Shown piece by piece: positions 26,638-41,016 of a stretch of 64,000 nt of DNA. The stretch is taken from contig NZ_JAIWPJ010000001.1 of assembly GCF_020515625.1 (NCBI RefSeq), forward strand, positions 248,001-312,000, given 5' to 3'. Numbering within the stretch: the stretch's first letter is position 1; the number at the start of each line of letters is the position of its first letter. Position numbers and translations under genes: made by a program. This stretch comes from Natrinema amylolyticum. Lineage in GTDB: Archaea; Halobacteriota; Halobacteria; Halobacteriales; Natrialbaceae. The notes beneath the pieces were generated by a model. That model saw only the letters and a program-made list of their open reading frames with translations. It was not told the DNA's origin and did no database searches.

Positions 26638-27375
26638 TCAGGGGAGTCGAATCGAGTGCTCGAGCGTGCCGACGCCCTCGACTTCGATCTCGATCTCGTC
26701 GCCGTCGGAGAGCGGGCCGACGCCCTCGGGCGTTCCGGTCGCGATCACGTCGCCTGGCTCTAAGGTGAGATAGGTCGTGATCTCTGCGATCAGTTCGGGG
26801 ATCGAGAAGATGAGCTGCTCGCGGGAGCCGTCCTGTTTCAGTTCGCCGTTGACGCGCGATCGGACGAACGCGTCGTCGGGAACCTCGTCGGGGGTCGCGA
26901 GCACCGGTCCGATCGGTGCGGCCCCGTCGAACGCCTTGCCGCGAATCCAGTTCTGCTCCCGATTCTGGTCCTCGCGGTTCGACACGTCGTTGAGGCAGGT
27001 AAAGCCCTCGACGACGTCCATCGCGTCGGCTTCGGGGACGTGGCGACACTGTTCGCCGATGACGACGCCGAGTTCGGCCTCGTAGTCGATCCGCTCTTTC
27101 CCGGCCGGCGCGGTGACGGTGTCGCCGTGACCAGCGAGCGCGTTCGGCGGCTTCAGGAAGAGCAGCGGTCGGTCGGGCAGGTCCGACCCCATCTCGTCGG
27201 CGTGGTCGGCGTAGTTGCGTCCGATACAGACGACCTTCGAGGGCTCCGACGGCGGCAACACGTCGATATCGTCGCTCGCGAGCGCGTAGCTCTCGTTCGC
27301 GAAGTGAACCGTCCCGTTCTCGTACTCGCCGCGGCGGACCGCACCGGCCGGATCGCGAAAGCGGACGTATTTCAT
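26638..27375 (-). CDS. Fumarylacetoacetate hydrolase (FAH)-family protein
   Basis: A 245-residue FAH-fold enzyme. It has an N-terminal cap (MKYVRFRDPAGAVRRGEYENG), the metal site IDYEAELGVVIGE, NREDQNREQNWIRGKAFDGAAPIGP, and the C-terminal GDVIATGTPEGVGPLSDGDEIEIEVEG. Members act on beta-diketo acids or 2-hydroxy-diene acids, or decarboxylate oxaloacetate, using Mg2+ or Mn2+. It lies 76 nt downstream of the TIM-barrel gene but has its own TATA-like box, so it may be co-regulated or independent. Confidence 0.85.
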   Translation of the reverse strand: MKYVRFRDPAGAVRRGEYENGTVHFANESYALASDDIDVLPPSEPSKVVCIGRNYADHADEMGSDLPDRPLLFLKPPNALAGHGDTVTAPAGKERIDYEAELGVVIGEQCRHVPEADAMDVVEGFTCLNDVSNREDQNREQNWIRGKAFDGAAPIGPVLATPDEVPDDAFVRSRVNGELKQDGSREQLIFSIPELIAEITTYLTLEPGDVIATGTPEGVGPLSDGDEIEIEVEGVGTLEHSIRLP

Positions 27376-27397
27376 GCTCGATGGAATGGTCGCAGGG

Positions 27398-27405
27398 GGT
27401 AAAAA
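27398..27405 (-). promoter_or_regulatory. TATA-like box of the FAH-family gene
   Basis: TTTTTACC on the minus strand, 23 nt before the ATG at 27375, in a GC-rich gap. It is compatible with a leaderless transcript. Confidence 0.45.
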
Positions 27406-27451
27406 GGATTGAGAAGGCGGTCAGTCCGGGGGCGTTCGAAACGCCGGCGAG

Positions 27452-28300
27452 CTAGACGTACGCCTCGAGCGCTTCGAAGGCCTCCCGCGCCGCGCTGTCG
27501 GGCTCGTCGGGGTAGGTGTAGAGCTCCAGCGTGGCGAAGCCGTCGTAGCCGACGTCCGCGAGCGCGTCGAAGATCGCGCGGAAATCGAGGTCGCCCTCGC
27601 CGGGGATTCGGTGGTAGTGTTTCCCCCGGCGGCCGCCGACGATGTCCTCGAGGTGGACGCCAGTGATCGAGCCGGCGCTGGCGCGGATGCTCTCCGGGAC
27701 GTCCTCGCCGTAGACGGCGGCGTGGCCGACGTCGAGATTGACGCCGAGCGAGTCCCGGCCGATCTCGTCGATCAACGCGAGCACCTCGTCGGTGTTCTCG
27801 ATCAGCAGTTCGGGTTCGAACTCGATGCCGACCTCGATATCGCGGGCCTCGGCGTAGTCGAGGATTTCGTGCAGCGACTCGCGGAGATAGTCGCGCGCCT
27901 CGTCGGGCATCGTTCCCGGCAGCGGGCGGCCGGTCGCCAGACAGACCGCCGGCGAGTCGACCGTCTCCGCGAGGTCGATCGCCCGTTTCGTGTACTCGAC
28001 GCGCCACTCGCGGGCCTCGTCGTCGGCGCGGATCACGCTCGGCTCGAAGAAGGCCGACGGCGGCGCGTCGTCGTAGTAGCCCATCGCCGTGTTCGCGTTG
28101 ATATTCGAGACGGCCAGGCCGGTGTCCGAGAGGGCCTCGAGAACGGCGTCGCGATCGGCGTCATCGAAGTCGGGGAAGTAGGCGTGGGGATCGTCGCCGA
28201 GCAGTTCGACGCCGGCGTAACCGTGGTCGGCGATTCGGCGGACGGCTTCGGGGAGGGAGCGGCGCGTGTACGCGTTCGTCGAAAAAGCGAGTTTGACCAT
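27452..28300 (-). CDS. Sugar phosphate isomerase/epimerase-type TIM barrel (EboE-like candidate 1)
   Basis: A 282-residue AP-endonuclease-2/xylose-isomerase-like barrel. It opens MVKLAFSTNAYTRRSLPEAV with HGYAGVELLGDDPHAYFP. Metal-binding Glu, Asp and His residues fall at the barrel ends: GIEFEPELLIENTDEVL, LGVNLDVGHAAVYGEDV, ITGVHLEDIVG, then HYHRIPGEGDLDF. The start at 28300 is preferred over one ten codons earlier because the first barrel strand begins there. It shares the STNA(Y/F) opening and overall plan with the barrel gene at 29431, so the two are paralogues. It is on the same strand as, and downstream of, the EboC-like prenyltransferase. Confidence 0.82.
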   Translation of the reverse strand: MVKLAFSTNAYTRRSLPEAVRRIADHGYAGVELLGDDPHAYFPDFDDADRDAVLEALSDTGLAVSNINANTAMGYYDDAPPSAFFEPSVIRADDEAREWRVEYTKRAIDLAETVDSPAVCLATGRPLPGTMPDEARDYLRESLHEILDYAEARDIEVGIEFEPELLIENTDEVLALIDEIGRDSLGVNLDVGHAAVYGEDVPESIRASAGSITGVHLEDIVGGRRGKHYHRIPGEGDLDFRAIFDALADVGYDGFATLELYTYPDEPDSAAREAFEALEAYV

Positions 28301-28448
28301 CGGTCTGCGCCTCGTACACCGGACGGCCACTAATTCGTTGGCCCGTCATACTCGAAGCGCGCTCAGCGACCGGTCGTACGTCGTGCGCCACCGCAGCGTC
28401 ACAGTGCGCCGCCACGCGTGGGTAGTCACGTCTGCCAACGTGGGTTAG

Positions 28449-29429
28449 TCACGTCACGTCGAAGACGCGAGCGAGGCCCACCGCGGGAACGAGAAAGACG
28501 GCGGCAGCGATCCCCCACTGGATCCCGACCACCGCGGCGAAGGCCGCGTCGAGTAACACGAGCCCGAGGACGCACGCCCCGACCGCCGGCCCGACGGTGC
28601 TCGGCACCGGATCGGCGTACGCGGCTCGCAGGGGTCGGCCGACCCACCAGCAGAACGCGGCGGCGAACGCGATTGCAGCTACCGTCTCGAGCGCGGCCGG
28701 ACCGACGGCGACGAGAACCCAGCCGACGGCGAGCGCCGCTGCGCCCGCACCCAGAGCGGCGACCGCGACGGCCCCACGATTCCCGCCTTCGGTCTCTCGA
28801 GCGGCGATGAACGTGACGGCAGCGATGTAGCCGGTAACGACGGCGGGGACGGCGAGCAGTCGAACCGGTGCCCCGAGTACCACACCCCCGGCCGCGGTCG
28901 TGCCCAGCACGACGTTCAGCCCGCGCGTCGTCCCCATCGCGAGGAAACCGGCGGCGGTCCCCTTCAGGAGGCCGTCGTAGGCGACGATGGCGACGGCGAC
29001 CAGCCCGGCGGCGACGGCGGCGGGGCCGCCCGCGACGGCGAACGCGATCCCGACCGCGAGAACCAGGAGCGCGAATCCGAGTCCGAACGCGGTGGGCCGA
29101 GAGACGCGACCGGACGGAATCGGACGTTCGGGCCGCTCTCGAGCGTCGACGGGCGCGTCGAAGGCGTCGTTGAGCGTCGTCCCAGCGGCGTAGAGGAGCA
29201 CCGAACTGGCCGCGAGTCCCGCGACCGTGACCGGCAGCGGCTCGTGGCCGGCGGCGGCGACGAGCGCGGCCCCGAGGAGCACGTCCGGCGGCGCCGTAAA
29301 GAGGTTCGGCAGGCGGACCAGTTCGGCGTACGCGCCCGCGATGGCTCGGCCGCCGGTGTCCCGATCCGTCTCCTCGAGCGCGCCCGAGTCGCCGTCTCCG
29401 TCGGTTCCCGATCGGACGCCGCCGGCCAC
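28449..29429 (-). CDS. UbiA-superfamily prenyltransferase, EboC-like
   Basis: A 326-residue membrane prenyltransferase with about nine helices after a polar N-terminus of about 35 residues. The first Asp-rich motif is TLNDAFDAPVDARERPERPIP (N87, D88, D91, D95), which binds Mg2+-prenyl diphosphate. The second conserved region is VAYDGLLKGTAAGFLAMG followed by TTRGLNVVLG; its MGxxRxLNxxLG pattern resembles the EboC branch rather than quinone or lipid UbiA enzymes. The start is GTG at 29429, one base after the stop of the barrel gene at 29431, so the two are in a tight operon. The acceptor is unknown. Confidence 0.82.
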   Translation of the reverse strand: MAGGVRSGTDGDGDSGALEETDRDTGGRAIAGAYAELVRLPNLFTAPPDVLLGAALVAAAGHEPLPVTVAGLAASSVLLYAAGTTLNDAFDAPVDARERPERPIPSGRVSRPTAFGLGFALLVLAVGIAFAVAGGPAAVAAGLVAVAIVAYDGLLKGTAAGFLAMGTTRGLNVVLGTTAAGGVVLGAPVRLLAVPAVVTGYIAAVTFIAARETEGGNRGAVAVAALGAGAAALAVGWVLVAVGPAALETVAAIAFAAAFCWWVGRPLRAAYADPVPSTVGPAVGACVLGLVLLDAAFAAVVGIQWGIAAAVFLVPAVGLARVFDVT

Positions 29430-29430
29430 C

Positions 29431-30261
29431 CTACGCCCACCCGCGTTCCTCGAGGTAGTCCATCGCTTCCCGCGCGGTCTCGATCGGCGTCTCCTCGTAG
29501 GGGTAGAGTTCGACGGTGACGAAGCCGTCGTAGCCCCGTGTCTCGAGTTCGCCCAGGAAGGCGTCGATGTCCATCGCCCCGTCGCCGAGTCGGGTGTGCT
29601 CGTGGGTCCGGTCGGCGGGGATGTCCTCGAGGTGGTAGTGGCTCGTGTGGTCCCAGAGCGGTTCGACGAGTTCGGCCGGGTCCTCGCCGACGCAGTAGAA
29701 GTGGCCGGCGTCGAAGTTACAGCGCACGCGTGGCGAGTCGACGCGCTCGAGGAGGGCGAGGAACTCGTCTGCGGTCTCGATCAGCAGGTCGGGTTCGGGC
29801 TCGACGAGCAGGTCGACGTCGAGGTCCTCGGCCGTGGGGATGAGTTCCTCGAGACTGTCGACGAAGGTATCCATCGCCCACTCGCGGGACTTGCCCTCGG
29901 GAATCGGCCCGCCGGGTTCGATCGAGATGTAGGGGAGGCCGAGGTCGGCCGCGGTCTCGAGCGCCGCGAGGGTGTAGTCGATCCGTTTCCGTCGGTACTC
30001 CTCGTCCGGTTCGATATAGGAGGGGTGGTGAAAGCCCTCGATCGCGGTCAGCATGAAGGCGTTGCCGTTGCTGACGGCGATGTCGTTCCGCTCGAGGACT
30101 TTCTCGACGCGCTCGCGCTCGTCGTCGGTGCAGTCGGGCGGATAGAGGTGCGGCTCGTCGAGCAGCAGTTCGACGCCATCGTAGCCCGCGTCGGCGATGG
30201 CCTCGATCGCGTCCTCGAGTTGGTACTCCCGGAAGGCGTTGGTGGAGAAGCCGAACTGCAT
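29431..30261 (-). CDS. Sugar phosphate isomerase/epimerase-type TIM barrel (EboE-like candidate 2)
   Basis: A 276-residue barrel with MQFGFSTNAFREYQLEDAIE and GYDGVELLLDEPHLYPPD. Metal-ligand stretches are ISIEPGGPIPEGKS, LLVEPEPDLLIETADEFL, VRCNFDAGHFYCVGEDP, HYHLEDIPADRTHEHTRLG and FVTVELYPYEETP. The repeated Glu/Asp/His at strand ends is the usual di- or mono-metal isomerase site. It starts 2 nt after the TatD-like stop codon and ends 1 nt before the UbiA-type gene, so it is in the middle of a compact operon. The sugar or cyclitol substrate cannot be assigned. Confidence 0.85.
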   Translation of the reverse strand: MQFGFSTNAFREYQLEDAIEAIADAGYDGVELLLDEPHLYPPDCTDDERERVEKVLERNDIAVSNGNAFMLTAIEGFHHPSYIEPDEEYRRKRIDYTLAALETAADLGLPYISIEPGGPIPEGKSREWAMDTFVDSLEELIPTAEDLDVDLLVEPEPDLLIETADEFLALLERVDSPRVRCNFDAGHFYCVGEDPAELVEPLWDHTSHYHLEDIPADRTHEHTRLGDGAMDIDAFLGELETRGYDGFVTVELYPYEETPIETAREAMDYLEERGWA

Positions 30262-30263
30262 CG

Positions 30264-31064
30264 TCAGGCCTCGTAGTCGAAGTTCGGCGATTGGTCGAAG
30301 AACTCGTAGGGGTTCTCGAAGACCACTTTGCGGACCTCCTCGCGATCCCAGCCCCGGTCGAGCATCGTGTCGCGGGCCTTCGGCACCGCCAGCGGATCGG
30401 ACGGATCCCAGTCGGCCGCGCTGTTGAAAATCATGTTGTCGGTGCCGTACTCCTCGAGCAGGTCGATCGCCGACTCGGTCTCGATCTTCCCGGGATAGAG
30501 CGTGAAGCCGATCCAGCAGTCCGTCCGCGTCGAGATGTCGATCGTGTTTTCGGTGTTGTGGTCGATGATGATCCGCTCCTGGGTGACGCCCATCTCCTCG
30601 ATGATCTCGACGATGCGTTCGGTGCCCGACGGCTTGTCGGTGTGGGGCGTGTGAATGATGACCGGGAGTTCGCGCTCTTCGGCGATCTCGAGTTGCCGGC
30701 GGAACGCCCACTCCTCGTCGTCGGTGACCTGATCGAACCCGATCTCGCCGACGCCGACGACCGGGTCTCGGTCGAGGTACTCCGGAATCCGGTCGACGAC
30801 CGCCTCGGCCATGTCGCGGTAGTTGGCTTCCTTCGGCTCGAGGCCGATCGTCACGTAGTGGTCCATGCCGGCGGCCCGGTCGGCGCGGTCGGTCTCGTGC
30901 TCGATGATCTGCTCGAAGTAATCGAAGAAAGAGCCGGCGTTGCGTTTGTCCTGACCGCTCCAGAACGCGGGCTCGATACAGCACTCGATACCCGCCCGCC
31001 GCGCTCGCCGGTAGTCGTCGGCCGAGCGCGAGACCATATGCATATGCGGATCGATAATTCGCAT
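30264..31064 (-). CDS. TatD-family metal-dependent hydrolase (EboB-like)
   Basis: A 266-residue TatD-type amidohydrolase barrel. MRIIDPHMHMVSRS supplies the HxH metal motif, VVGVGEIGFDQVTDDEEWAFRRQLEIA the conserved Glu, LPVIIHTPHTDK a His, and IIIDHNTENTI the later His. It ends EEVRKVVFENPYEFF, the C-terminal pattern of this family. TatD relatives are 3'-exonucleases or deacylases, but the EboB subgroup lies in metabolite clusters and its reaction is unknown. The start at 31064 removes an upstream extension of 49 codons that lacks family similarity. It is the first gene of the minus-strand operon. Confidence 0.82.
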   Translation of the reverse strand: MRIIDPHMHMVSRSADDYRRARRAGIECCIEPAFWSGQDKRNAGSFFDYFEQIIEHETDRADRAAGMDHYVTIGLEPKEANYRDMAEAVVDRIPEYLDRDPVVGVGEIGFDQVTDDEEWAFRRQLEIAEERELPVIIHTPHTDKPSGTERIVEIIEEMGVTQERIIIDHNTENTIDISTRTDCWIGFTLYPGKIETESAIDLLEEYGTDNMIFNSAADWDPSDPLAVPKARDTMLDRGWDREEVRKVVFENPYEFFDQSPNFDYEA

Positions 31065-31366
31065 ACAGGCCGTGCCACGAGTAAACGGTTTGGTGCTGCC
31101 GGTCGTTCGACCGACAAACTCGAGGTTGATGACGGGCCGTTGACTGGTCCCGGCGGCGGAATACGGTGTTACGACCGGGCAAAACCGTGTTACTTCCGCT
31201 ACGCGAGTCATAACGAAAGCCGTCCGCCCACCACTCTCGTGGGAATGCTCCCAATCGAACCAGCGATGGCCGCGGGACGGTGGCGTGTGGCCGAATCCGG
31301 TAGTCCCGGGGACCGACGGAGGTCGGAATTCGACTGTACCCGCCCGTCCAGACGGAACGATTCCCG
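31065..31366. other. Divergent control region of the ebo-like cluster
   Basis: 302 bp without a gene between the TatD-like gene (minus) and the MIPS-family gene (plus). It must carry both promoters. A direct repeat with 20-bp periodicity lies at 31167-31193. A GTTTAC at 31081-31086 (minus strand) is a weak TATA candidate for the leftward operon; no clear TATA box was seen for the rightward one. Confidence 0.5.
31167..31193 (+). repeat. Direct repeat GTGTTAC spaced two helical turns apart
   Basis: GTGTTAC occurs at 31167-31173 and again at 31187-31193, each preceded by a similar ACGG/ACCG. The 20-bp period puts both on one face of the helix, as expected for a tandem regulator site serving the divergent genes. 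The function is inferred. Confidence 0.4.
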
Positions 31367-32581
31367 ATGAGCCAGGGGACGGAGTCGGCGGACGACGAGC
31401 GAACCGGCGTCTGGCTCGTCGGCGCTCGAGGGAACGTCGCGACGATGTCCATCGTCGGTGCCCGCGCCATCTCCCAGGGGCTGACCGACACGACCGGGAT
31501 GGTCACGGAACGCGACCCGGTCTCGAGTCTCGATCTCCCGCCGGTCGAGGGACTCGTCTTCGGCGGTCACGACATCGAATCGGAGTCGCTCGTCGCACGG
31601 GCCGAGCGCCAGCGCGATCGGAACGGCGTTCCCGACGCCGACACGCTCGAGTCGGTCCAGGACGATCTGGCCGCCATCGACGAGCGGATCGAAGTCGGGA
31701 CGGCAGTCAACTGCGGTGCGGCCGTCTCCGAGGAGAGCGAACGGTTAGACGAGAGCCTGTCGATCCGGGACGTCGTCGATCAGATCCGGGACGACTACGA
31801 GACCTTCCGCGACACGCACGACCTCGATCGCCTCGTGGTCGTCAACGTCGCCTCGACGGAACCCGAACTGGCGGAGCCGGAGCGCTACGACACTCGCGAC
31901 GCCCTCGAGCGAGCGATCGACGATGACGACCGCGACCTCCCGGCGAGCGTCCTCTACGCCTACGCCGCGATCGTCGATGACCACCCGTTCGTCAACTTCA
32001 CGCCGAGTACGGGCAACGCACTCGGCGGCGTCCGCGAACTCGCGGCCGAAAACGGCGTCCCCCACATGGGCCGCGACGCGAAGACCGGCGAGACGCTCGT
32101 CAAATCCGCGCTCGCGCCCATGTTCGCCGGGCGCAACCTGCACGTAATGAGCTGGGAGGGCCACAACATCCTCGGCAACGAGGACGGCCTCGTCCTCGAG
32201 GACGAGGCGAACGCCGCGGGCAAGCTCGCGAGCAAGGGTGACGTGCTCGATTCGATCCTCCCCGACATCGGCCACAACCGCGTTCGAATCGACTACACCC
32301 CGTCGCTGGCCGACTGGAAGACCGCCTGGGACTACATCCACTTCGAGGGCTTTCTCGAGACGGAAATGAAGATGCAGTTCACCTGGGAAGGGTCCGATTC
32401 CGCGCTGGCCGCGCCGCTCGTCCTCGATCTGGTGCGGCTGGTCGCCCACGCCGACGAACACGACGACGGCGGGCTCCAGCCCCACCTCGCGTCGTTCTTC
32501 AAGGCCCCGATCGGCGTGGACGAACACGACTTCTCTCGGCAGCTGGATCGACTATACGACTACGCCGAGCGGCATCGCTGA
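31367..32581 (+). CDS. Inositol-3-phosphate synthase (MIPS)-family protein
   Basis: A 404-residue protein of the myo-inositol-1-phosphate synthase family, which isomerises and cyclises glucose 6-phosphate through an NAD-dependent mechanism. The nucleotide-binding turn is GVWLVGARGNVATMS, and LVVVNVASTEPE lies on the next strands. The catalytic region shows FVNFTPSTGNALGG, then HMGRDAKTGETLVKSALAPMF (lysines in the place of the MIPS active-site lysines), and LHVMSWEGHNILGNEDG. It is shorter than yeast INO1, as archaeal members are. It is divergent from the TatD-isomerase-UbiA operon and 84 nt upstream of the phosphatase gene. It may make myo-inositol phosphate or another cyclitol phosphate. 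Confidence 0.85.
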   Translation: MSQGTESADDERTGVWLVGARGNVATMSIVGARAISQGLTDTTGMVTERDPVSSLDLPPVEGLVFGGHDIESESLVARAERQRDRNGVPDADTLESVQDDLAAIDERIEVGTAVNCGAAVSEESERLDESLSIRDVVDQIRDDYETFRDTHDLDRLVVVNVASTEPELAEPERYDTRDALERAIDDDDRDLPASVLYAYAAIVDDHPFVNFTPSTGNALGGVRELAAENGVPHMGRDAKTGETLVKSALAPMFAGRNLHVMSWEGHNILGNEDGLVLEDEANAAGKLASKGDVLDSILPDIGHNRVRIDYTPSLADWKTAWDYIHFEGFLETEMKMQFTWEGSDSALAAPLVLDLVRLVAHADEHDDGGLQPHLASFFKAPIGVDEHDFSRQLDRLYDYAERHR

Positions 32582-32665
32582 CGACGACCGTCCGCTCTCC
32601 CGTTCCCGCATCGAACCCGAACGCCATGACCGTCACCCCCACCCACATCGCCCATACCGCGAACG

Positions 32666-34060
32666 ATGACTGAATCACCGAGTACAGAGACGACCGACAC
32701 CGCTGGCCGCGCGATCGTCCTCGACGTCGTCGGCCTCCAACCCCACCATATCGACGCCGAGCGAACGCCGACCCTTGAGTCGCACTTCCCGACCGAATCG
32801 GTGACCGACCTCCGGCCGCCGTTCCCCGCCGTCACGGTGCCCGCCCAGACGACGCTCGCGACCGGGCGCGGTCCCGGCGAGCACGGCGACGTCTCGAGTG
32901 GCGAGTACGACCGCGAGCGCGACGCCGCCGAGTTCTGGGAGCGCGACCGCAACGGTCGCGACCGGATCTGGGAGACCGCCAGCGACGAGGCGGGGCTGAC
33001 CACCGGCGTCCTGAACTTCCAGCACCTGATCGGGACGAGTGCCGACGTCGCGGTCACCCCCTCGCCGATCGAGGACGAGAACAACGACATCCTCGAGATG
33101 AACTGCTGGACCAATCCGGACGGCTTCTACGACGACCTCCGCGAGGAGCTGGGCCACTTCCCGCTGCACAACTACTGGGGCCCCGGCGCGAACGAGGAGG
33201 GGAGCCGTTGGATCCTCGCAGCCGCGCGAGAGGCGATCGATCGCTTCGATCCCGATCTGCTGTGGATCTACGTCCCGCATCTGGACTACGTCGGCCAGAG
33301 CGACGGACCCGAAAGCGACGCCTTCCAGGAGGAACTCGCCGTCGTCGACGATCTGCTCGCGGCGTTTCTCGACGACCTCGCCGAGACCGACCGCTGGGAG
33401 GAGACCGTCCTCACGCTCGTCAGCGAGTACGGCTTTCACGACGTGGATCGGCCGGTGTTCCCGAACCGCGCGCTTCGCGAGGCCGACCTCCTCGAGACCG
33501 ACGGGGACGGCGACGTCGACGTCGCCGCCTCGGACGCATTCGCCATGGTCGACCATCAGATCGCCCACGTCTACGCCGACGACGGGTCGACCGACGCCGC
33601 TCGCGACACGCTCGCAGGACTCGAGGGGGTCGACGCCGTTCTCGATGAATCGAGCAAGGCCGAGCGCGGGATCGACCACCCGAACGCGGGCGAGTTCGTC
33701 CTCGTGGCCGATCCCGACAGCTGGTTCCAGTACTACTGGTGGACGGACCGCGCGAACGCACCGCCGTACGCGACCGAGATGGACATCCACGCCAAACCCG
33801 GCTTCGATCCCTGCGAACTGTTCTTCGGCGACGAGGGACTCGTCTCGCTCGACGCCTCGAAGGTCAGCGGCTCTCACGGCCGCGTCGACGAGTCCGCATT
33901 CGGGACGTTCGGCCTCGGCGGCCCGGCCGCACCTGCGCTCGAGGGCGACGAGCCCGTCGACGCCACTGACGTGACGCCGACGCTCGTCGATCTGTTAGGG
34001 CTCGAGGGGGCGCTCTCGACGGACATCGCCGGCTCGTCGATTCGTCCGGACCGAGAGTAA
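32666..34060 (+). CDS. Alkaline phosphatase / nucleotide pyrophosphatase-family protein (EboF-like)
   Basis: A 464-residue member of the alkaline phosphatase superfamily, phosphodiesterase branch. Metal and nucleophile residues fit: Asp20 in AIVLDVVGLQPHH, and Thr57 in PAVTVPAQTTLATGRGP as the nucleophile. LLWIYVPHLDYVGQ supplies Asp and His, FHDVDRP the Asp/His pair, and SGSHGRVDES the last His. No signal peptide is seen, so it is probably cytoplasmic. Relatives cleave phosphodiester or phosphonate bonds or nucleotide sugars. It follows the MIPS-family gene by 84 nt on the same strand and matches the EboF position in bacterial clusters. Confidence 0.83.
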   Translation: MTESPSTETTDTAGRAIVLDVVGLQPHHIDAERTPTLESHFPTESVTDLRPPFPAVTVPAQTTLATGRGPGEHGDVSSGEYDRERDAAEFWERDRNGRDRIWETASDEAGLTTGVLNFQHLIGTSADVAVTPSPIEDENNDILEMNCWTNPDGFYDDLREELGHFPLHNYWGPGANEEGSRWILAAAREAIDRFDPDLLWIYVPHLDYVGQSDGPESDAFQEELAVVDDLLAAFLDDLAETDRWEETVLTLVSEYGFHDVDRPVFPNRALREADLLETDGDGDVDVAASDAFAMVDHQIAHVYADDGSTDAARDTLAGLEGVDAVLDESSKAERGIDHPNAGEFVLVADPDSWFQYYWWTDRANAPPYATEMDIHAKPGFDPCELFFGDEGLVSLDASKVSGSHGRVDESAFGTFGLGGPAAPALEGDEPVDATDVTPTLVDLLGLEGALSTDIAGSSIRPDRE

Positions 34061-34253: not shown

Positions 34254-34328
34254 GCTCCGTTGGTGTAGTCCGGCCAATCATTTCGGCCTTTCGAGCCGAT
34301 GACCTGGGTTCAAATCCCAGACGGAGCA
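34254..34328 (+). tRNA. tRNA-Glu (anticodon UUC)
   Basis: A 75-nt cloverleaf. The acceptor stem GCTCCGT pairs with ACGGAGC (34321-34327), with discriminator A at 34328. The anticodon stem TCGGC/GCCGA encloses loop CTTTCGA with anticodon TTC. The T arm is CTGGG-TTCAAAT-CCCAG. CCA is not encoded, as is usual in archaea. No intron is present. Copies of its 3' end lie downstream. Confidence 0.95.
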
Positions 34329-34439
34329 CTACAGCGAACGAACGTTTGTGAGTGAGCGAAGCGCGCACGGATGGGATTTGAAGTAGAGAAACGCGAGCGA
34401 TAGAGAGCGTTTCGCGTGGTTCAAATCCCAGACGGAGCA
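34307..34439 (+). repeat. 22-bp direct repeat of the tRNA-Glu 3' end (att-like scar)
   Basis: The last 22 bases of the tRNA gene (34307-34328, from GGTTCAAATCCC to GACGGAGCA) recur exactly at 34418-34439, 111 bp away. Duplication of a tRNA 3' end is the hallmark of site-specific integration by tyrosine-recombinase elements. Only 89 bp lie between the copies and no integrase is present, so this is best read as a scar. The spacer contains an inverted repeat (GAAACGC 34388-34394 / GCGTTTC 34407-34413) and an inverted partial copy (CTTCAAATCCC on the minus strand near 34372-34382). Confidence 0.75.
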
Positions 34440-39795: not shown

Positions 39796-40668
39796 TCACC
39801 AGACCAGCCACTCGAGCGCGAGGACGACGGCGGCGAGAAAGACGTGTTCGCCGTCGACGACGAACCCGTAGTACAGCGGGCCGCGGTCGGTGGTCGCGAA
39901 GGGGACGTACGCACAGACGTAGGCGTTCATCGCGAGCACGACGAGGAACTCGCGCGGAACCGCGCCGCCGACGACGAGGGCGACCACCGCCGCTGCGACG
40001 GCGACGGTCGCCAGCAGCGACAGGATGCGGGTCCGGTGCGGACCGAACAGGTTGGGGACCGTCGGGATCCCCTCCGCGCGGTCGCCCTCGATGTCCTTCA
40101 CATCGAAGATCACCGCGGCGATGGTGATCATGGTCGTGATATAGGCGAAGAGAAACAGGATCTCCGGCGAGCGCAACTGACCGTAGTAGTAGCCGACGCC
40201 GAGCGGGATCGCGCCCCAGGCGAATCCGACCACGAGGTTTTTCACGAGAAAGATCTGCTTGACCCCGCCGACGGAGTACAGGAACACGACCGCGAGCGGG
40301 AGGAGCATGTACACCGCACCGGGGAGCGCGAGCGCGACGGCGATTCCGACCGCGGCGACGTAGAGCGCGATTCCCGCGGACAGCCAGAGCGTCCCGTACC
40401 GCTTGGTAAAGGCCGCGCGCTGTGGCACGTTCTGTTCGTCCTCCTCGAGGTCGGTGAACCGGTTGACGGTGTAGACGAACATCGTCGCCGCGAAGACGAT
40501 GAACAGCGGCAGGGGCTCGAGGGGCAGGTCCGCGAGGAGGACGGTCGTGACGGCGACGCTGACCGTCGCCAGCGAGATGAAGAGGTTACTGTGGACCAGA
40601 AACCGAAGGGCGGTCGTTATCGATGACACCCAACCCGACGTTCGATGCGTTGCGGTAGGGTTCCTCAC
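39796..40668 (-). CDS. UbiA-superfamily prenyltransferase (second, not EboC-like)
   Basis: A membrane prenyltransferase of about nine helices. The first Asp motif is TVNRFTDLEEDEQNVPQRA and the second DVKDIEGDRAEGIPTVPNLFG, both in classical positions for UbiA enzymes that join a prenyl diphosphate to an aromatic, glycerol-phosphate or carotenoid acceptor. The motifs differ from the EboC-like gene at 28449. No quinone or carotenoid genes are adjacent. The start is uncertain: ATG at 40761 overlaps a TATA-like box, so GTG at 40668 (used here) or 40629 is more likely. The catalytic part begins near LRFLVHSNLF. Confidence 0.8.
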   Translation of the reverse strand: MRNPTATHRTSGWVSSITTALRFLVHSNLFISLATVSVAVTTVLLADLPLEPLPLFIVFAATMFVYTVNRFTDLEEDEQNVPQRAAFTKRYGTLWLSAGIALYVAAVGIAVALALPGAVYMLLPLAVVFLYSVGGVKQIFLVKNLVVGFAWGAIPLGVGYYYGQLRSPEILFLFAYITTMITIAAVIFDVKDIEGDRAEGIPTVPNLFGPHRTRILSLLATVAVAAAVVALVVGGAVPREFLVVLAMNAYVCAYVPFATTDRGPLYYGFVVDGEHVFLAAVVLALEWLVW

Positions 40669-40760
40669 GACGGTGCGCCTCGTCTCGAGGTAGCGGCCGG
40701 CAGACGTTTGAATGCTGTGTCGATCCCGTCGATCCGTCGTTCGGTCGACTTCCCGAACCA

Positions 40761-40770
40761 TAAAATACGA
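40761..40770 (-). promoter_or_regulatory. TATA-like box (TCGTATTTTA) upstream of the UbiA-type gene
   Basis: An AT-rich decamer on the minus strand. It overlaps the most upstream ATG candidate of the downstream gene, which argues for a later start codon. Confidence 0.45.
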
Positions 40771-41016
40771 TGAGATCGTGCGAGCTTCACCCACGACGGA
40801 CCGATCGATCGGAATTTACTCGGATTCGTACTACTGGAAAAACGACTACTCGTAGTGGGAATTCGGGACCGAGTTCGGACGTGCGGGAAGGTCACACCCA
40901 CCTTCAGTTGAAAACCCACACAAAGAGGGGCGATGAGAAAACGGTACGGCGGTAACGCACCCGGTGTAGTCGATACACGTCGATCGATCTCCGGTGGCGA
41001 GTGGAAACTGGCAGGA

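Follow-up and report, generated by a model that had tools for sequence, protein, structure and literature searches.

Six adjacent genes in the haloarchaeon Natrinema amylolyticum make up a variant ebo cluster of haloarchaeal type; ebo gene sets are known from numerous bacterial phyla and from the plastids of algae. The module lies at positions 27452–34060 of the window, a 64,000-nt stretch of contig NZ_JAIWPJ010000001.1 to whose numbering all coordinates refer, and very likely represents one functional unit homologous to ebo. It comprises, on the minus strand, genes for a TatD-fold metallohydrolase (TatD), two TIM barrels (TIM1 and TIM2) and a UbiA-superfamily prenyltransferase (UbiA) and, on the plus strand, genes for a myo-inositol-phosphate-synthase-family cyclase (MIPS) and a phosphodiesterase (PDE). 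An earlier note, made from the letters of the sequence, had read this region as an archaeal counterpart of ebo. The genes it named are all present in the places and on the strands that it gave, and its reading stands to the extent that EboB, EboC, EboF and a cyclitol-phosphate synthase are co-conserved, whereas the lack of EboA, EboD and EboE sets the module apart from a standard ebo cluster. A limited literature search, which returned descriptions from bacteria and eustigmatophyte plastids (PMC5133447, PMC6282210, PMC9235831), found no archaeal ebo cluster.

The EboB, EboC and EboF components

Three of the module proteins can be matched directly to bacterial ebo proteins. The membrane component, an EboC-type UbiA-superfamily prenyltransferase (28449–29429, minus strand), has NF035940 EboC as its best NCBIfam match, at 194 bits over its full length, followed by SCO3242 at 170 bits. 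In the UbiA tree, haloarchaeal and bacterial EboC sequences fall on one side (88/85), apart from the genome's own UbiA paralogues, and the haloarchaeal EboC sequences form a single clade (97/90), with long branches leaving the deep order unsure. Profile search and tree together bear out the EboC-like identity proposed in the earlier note, and on sequence grounds UbiA is placed with bacterial EboC and away from the quinone, heme and lipid paralogues of the same genome. The protein carries the motifs NDxxDxxxD and YDxxxK. Its structure model (predicted local distance difference test score, pLDDT, 85) is closest in fold to the digeranylgeranylglyceryl phosphate (DGGGP) synthases 6m31 and 7bpu, enzymes that prenylate a glycerol-phosphate ether, an acceptor that is not aromatic. 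The resemblance to DGGGP synthase thus covers the fold, the layout of the NDxxDxxxD and second motifs, and the top structural matches, but UbiA belongs to a separate clade of the tree and the genome keeps a DGGGP-synthase-like paralogue of its own. The gene has a GTG start, and no homology was seen over the first ~30 residues. A second UbiA-family gene, at 39796–40794 and 10 kb away, is very divergent and unrelated to EboC in the tree.

The two hydrolases are orthologues of EboB and EboF, as the earlier note had supposed. TatD (30264–31064, minus strand; Pfam TatD_DNase) shows full-length identities of 46% to Streptomyces EboB and 44% to Azospirillum EboB, and the metal ligands HxH, E, H, H and D are retained in haloarchaeal and bacterial sequences alike. 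PDE (32666–34060, plus strand), a phosphodiesterase/phosphatase of the alkaline-phosphatase fold, is 39% identical to Streptomyces EboF and 38% identical to Azospirillum EboF. Its SEYG motif, an unusual change at a metal site of the fold, is also that of bacterial EboF; four paralogues in the same genome have SDHG. Among the plasmid matches to TatD listed at E<=1e-25, the organisms represented were largely those with ebo clusters. The closest solved structure to EboB-type TatD is that of an uncharacterised Archaeoglobus protein, AF_1765 (3guw).

Co-occurrence, layout and boundaries in haloarchaea

In a survey of 391 haloarchaeal genomes, the UbiA orthologue was detected in 55, with a wide gap separating it from other UbiA proteins, and the TatD orthologue was found in exactly the same 55 genomes. 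MIPS was present in 53 genomes, 51 of which also carry UbiA and TatD; in 46 of these 51 it lies within 6 kb of UbiA, and in the remaining five both genes are present but unlinked. The distribution is patchy, with carriers in 19 of 86 genera. Among congeners of the window's source, an identical set of seven genomes has both UbiA and MIPS while the same others lack both. The Fisher test of UbiA/MIPS co-occurrence is inflated by the kinship of the genomes; the identity of the UbiA and TatD genome sets, together with the 51 genomes sharing MIPS, nevertheless places the grouping of these genes far beyond chance. The synteny survey that the earlier note had called for finds the genes co-conserved in Halobacteria.

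In the window, TatD and TIM1 are separated by 2 nt and TIM1 and UbiA by 1 nt, as had been reported, and UbiA and TIM2 by 148 nt, while 84 nt lie between MIPS and PDE on the opposite strand. The divergent intergenic region of 302 nt (31065–31366) is the presumed promoter region of both arms, and this layout is kept in most haloarchaeal loci. The arrangement of TatD-TIM1-UbiA with divergent MIPS-PDE was found in 17 of the first 18 loci, and rearranged forms occur elsewhere, including a Natronococcus plasmid on which the full gene set is co-directional. Copies of the module are carried on plasmids of four genera. In several Natrialbaceae (loci L036, L047, L048, L049 and L100), inserts of 2.4–4.7 kb with differing large acidic open reading frames (ORFs) separate UbiA from TIM2; these were rejected as additional pathway genes because the ORFs differ from genome to genome.

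The limits of the module are defined by congeners that lack it. These genomes keep the topoisomerase VI A gene, MBL, FAH and tRNA-Glu, mostly followed by Lrp and MOSC, and are without exactly TIM2, UbiA, TIM1, TatD, MIPS and PDE. Because the empty sites retain FAH and MBL, both are flanking genes and were ruled out as cluster members, contrary to the earlier note's inclusion of FAH. In the window, FAH occupies 26638–27375 on the minus strand, as part of the flanking backbone, and tRNA-Glu lies downstream of PDE at 34254–34329. Two module-free congeners contain decayed remnants between FAH and tRNA-Glu, namely a piece of PDE corresponding to residues 333–460 in G028 (L093, 2301–4000) and pieces of PDE and TIM2 in G321 (L095, 3358–3515), indicating that the module was lost in at least these two.

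These data also bear on the view that the genes are coincidental neighbours, or a sugar or cyclitol breakdown operon with an unrelated UbiA, which the earlier note had tied to a UbiA falling among quinone or lipid enzymes and to a lack of co-conservation. TIM-barrel and FAH genes are indeed common in catabolic operons, but the identical 55-genome sets, the position of UbiA in the EboC clade, the existence of bacterial clusters with the same parts and the exclusion of FAH refute coincidence and make this view extremely improbable.

The cyclase and the TIM barrels

The place of EboD is taken by MIPS (31367–32581, plus strand; Pfam PF07994 and PF01658). No haloarchaeal locus gave a hidden Markov model (HMM) match to EboD, the sugar-phosphate cyclase of dehydroquinate (DHQ)-synthase fold. 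The MIPS protein matches Archaeoglobus fulgidus MIPS (1u1i) at 281 bits and is 45% identical to MIPS of the Streptomyces cluster. Positions D237, K286, K290, K318, D344 and K379, mapped from the A. fulgidus protein, are all conserved and correspond to its catalytic residues. With all six in place and the gene co-conserved with EboC, the presence of a cyclitol-phosphate-synthase-family gene in the cluster, as claimed earlier, is upheld. In the MIPS tree the protein joins sequences from Pirellulales and from actinobacteria, that of the Streptomyces cluster included (98/98), and stands away from methanogen MIPS and from those of other Halobacteriota; Gemmatirosa MIPS remained unplaced. Tree and distribution together rule out a housekeeping archaeal MIPS.

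It has been considered that MIPS simply provides the myo-inositol phosphate needed for conventional membrane lipids of archaetidylinositol type, the other genes being accessory. No other PF07994 gene, and hence no second MIPS gene, occurs in the genome, and myo-inositol-headed lipids have been discussed for haloarchaea, the MIPS gene of Haloferax volcanii, HVO_B0213, being assigned to them (PMC8305020). Such a role is unlikely, since no CDP-alcohol phosphatidyltransferase occurs among the module and flanking genes scanned, MIPS in Halobacteria is found almost only alongside EboC and TatD while most haloarchaea lack it, and its affinity is with bacterial ebo-cluster MIPS and not with that of methanogens. 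Haloarchaeal-type MIPS genes without EboC nearby were also observed, on a Halomarina plasmid (L140, 8001–9245), where the gene adjoins glycosyltransferases, and in L108 and L109, pointing to a further role for MIPS among haloarchaea. Plasmids of Roseomonas and Hymenobacter (L141 and L142) carry clusters of MIPS, Gfo/Idh/MocA, YcaO and sugar isomerase genes, apparently another MIPS-based pathway.

The remaining two genes encode paralogous xylose-isomerase-like TIM barrels of epimerase/isomerase type, TIM1 (29431–30261, minus strand; Pfam AP_endonuc_2) and TIM2 (27452–28300, minus strand). TIM2 is 39% identical to TIM1 and 32% identical to the TIM barrel of the Streptomyces cluster, whose HMM both proteins match at 118 bits. 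The E-D-H-E metal ligands are retained in TIM1, across 38 haloarchaeal sequences, and in TIM2, and a Pirellulales orthologue is placed among the haloarchaeal TIM1 sequences. The TIM-barrel structure Art22 is a distant match. The earlier assignment of a TIM barrel to EboE did not hold: the EboE profile scores 23–25 bits on these proteins versus a cut-off of 250, and EboE forms a separate clade (100/100). Both TIM1 and TIM2 were rejected as EboE on this basis and belong to the Streptomyces-cluster TIM lineage; two paralogous barrels of this type replace EboE. EboA, which the earlier note had not recognised, is likewise absent: a profile that does find bacterial EboA gave no match in the haloarchaeal loci, and the model NF035938 matched none of the 391 genomes, nor any positive control genome, though it scores 150–170 bits on two known EboA proteins.

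Among bacterial clusters, the SCO3242-type cluster of Streptomyces and Nonomuraea resembles the module in bringing together MIPS, EboC-type, xylose-isomerase-like TIM, TatD and EboF-type genes, with MIPS sequences that group in the tree. The Streptomyces cluster, in the order MIPS, EboC, TIM, EboA, TatD, EboE, EboF, differs in having EboA and EboE, both missing from haloarchaea, whereas haloarchaea have two TIM barrels and two divergent arms. Classic EboA-F clusters, sampled from Azospirillum, Aureibacter, Deinococcus, Roseivivax and Mycetohabitans together with those of Nostoc and eustigmatophyte plastids, share orthologues of EboB, EboC and EboF, as well as one or another sort of sugar-phosphate cyclase, but use a DHQ-synthase-fold EboD and EboE, usually with EboA (none is annotated in the Deinococcus cluster), and contain neither MIPS nor the second TIM family. 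In the clusters sampled, the extra TIM barrel always accompanies MIPS-type and never EboD-type clusters; a Gemmatirosa plasmid, for example, carries EboE, B, F, C, MIPS and TIM. A Pirellulales metagenome-assembled genome (L051) comes close to the haloarchaeal arrangement: it has a TIM1 orthologue, EboC, a second TIM barrel, EboF-type and TatD genes, and no EboA or EboE was found there, but it differs in gene order and strand, its second TIM barrel is of bacterial type, and its MIPS lies elsewhere in the genome, unlinked.

Proposed pathway and competing explanations

From homology, intact catalytic motifs, module boundaries and co-occurrence, a tentative sequence of substrates, steps and product can be drawn. 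The MIPS-family enzyme would close glucose 6-phosphate into a cyclitol phosphate, either inositol 3-phosphate or one closely similar; TIM1 and TIM2 would alter this cyclitol, or the keto form of it, through epimerisation, isomerisation or dehydration; the EboC-type enzyme would then place a prenyl chain, probably C20 or C25, on the cyclitol, much as DGGGP synthase does on a glycerol-phosphate ether; and, whether ahead of prenylation or following it, the cytosolic EboF-type and EboB-type hydrolases would strip off phosphate or some other group. The product would be a prenylated cyclitol, a reading to which a probability of about 0.5 may be given. The best clue is that one slot is filled by either EboD or MIPS, whose folds are unrelated although each enzyme closes a sugar phosphate into a ring, and this points to a cyclitol phosphate as the shared intermediate; since the haloarchaeal cyclase is MIPS, an enzyme of known chemistry, the likely precursor is narrowed to an inositol-type cyclitol phosphate.

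Several points weigh against a prenylated cyclitol. We know of no ebo cluster with a known product. The 194-bit EboC score of UbiA is below the NCBI equivalog cut-off of 250, and a five-membered-cyclitol-phosphate synthase (6k96) is among the distant matches of MIPS, whose family includes members that can make other cyclitols. Four EboC/TatD carriers (G298, G368, G324 and G315) have no detectable MIPS; these genomes may rely on import of the cyclitol or on a different route to it. The corresponding loci in the first three (L123, L124 and L107) retain the TIM barrels and PDE. Finally, Ubi-297, the sole EboC homologue to have been assayed, farnesylated the aromatic compound 8-hydroxyquinoline-2-carboxylic acid in vitro (PMC9235831).

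This last activity, together with the service of Nostoc ebo to scytonemin, an aromatic pigment (PMC6282210), raises the alternative that the acceptor of EboC is aromatic or quinoline-like, with the cyclitol path serving only to feed or decorate that compound. That is rather unlikely for the haloarchaeal module, as no aromatic-biosynthesis gene was seen in it, or consistently near it, in any haloarchaeal locus, and the closest UbiA folds include DGGGP synthases with their non-aromatic acceptor. A lipid-carrier system moving a metabolite across the membrane has been proposed for Nostoc ebo, where deletion phenotypes suggest precursor transport (PMC6282210), and the earlier note extended this to the present genes; a prenylated cyclitol could serve as such a carrier. 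The module, however, contains no transporter, its neighbouring genes differ between genomes, and a simple hydrophobicity and twin-arginine check detected no secretion signal in the five soluble proteins, PDE included, which assigns the chemistry to the cytosol and the inner face of the membrane. Movement across the membrane was thus not borne out and is very unlikely.

It is conceivable, at somewhat less than an even chance, that this minimal ebo pathway makes an undescribed archaeal isoprenoid-inositol lipid or a signalling or protective compound, with MIPS and the TIM barrels replacing EboD and EboE and EboA being unneeded. If so, the chemistry of all ebo clusters, plastid and cyanobacterial ones included, would be identified. 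The module also offers a candidate role for the H. volcanii MIPS gene, until now tentatively assigned to lipid head groups. There is a real chance that the haloarchaeal cluster may reveal the ebo product. Among 14 control genomes, Haloferax volcanii was the sole match to the EboC profile at E<=1e-30; with the MIPS gene HVO_B0213 and good genetics, it is an organism in which the question can be tested.

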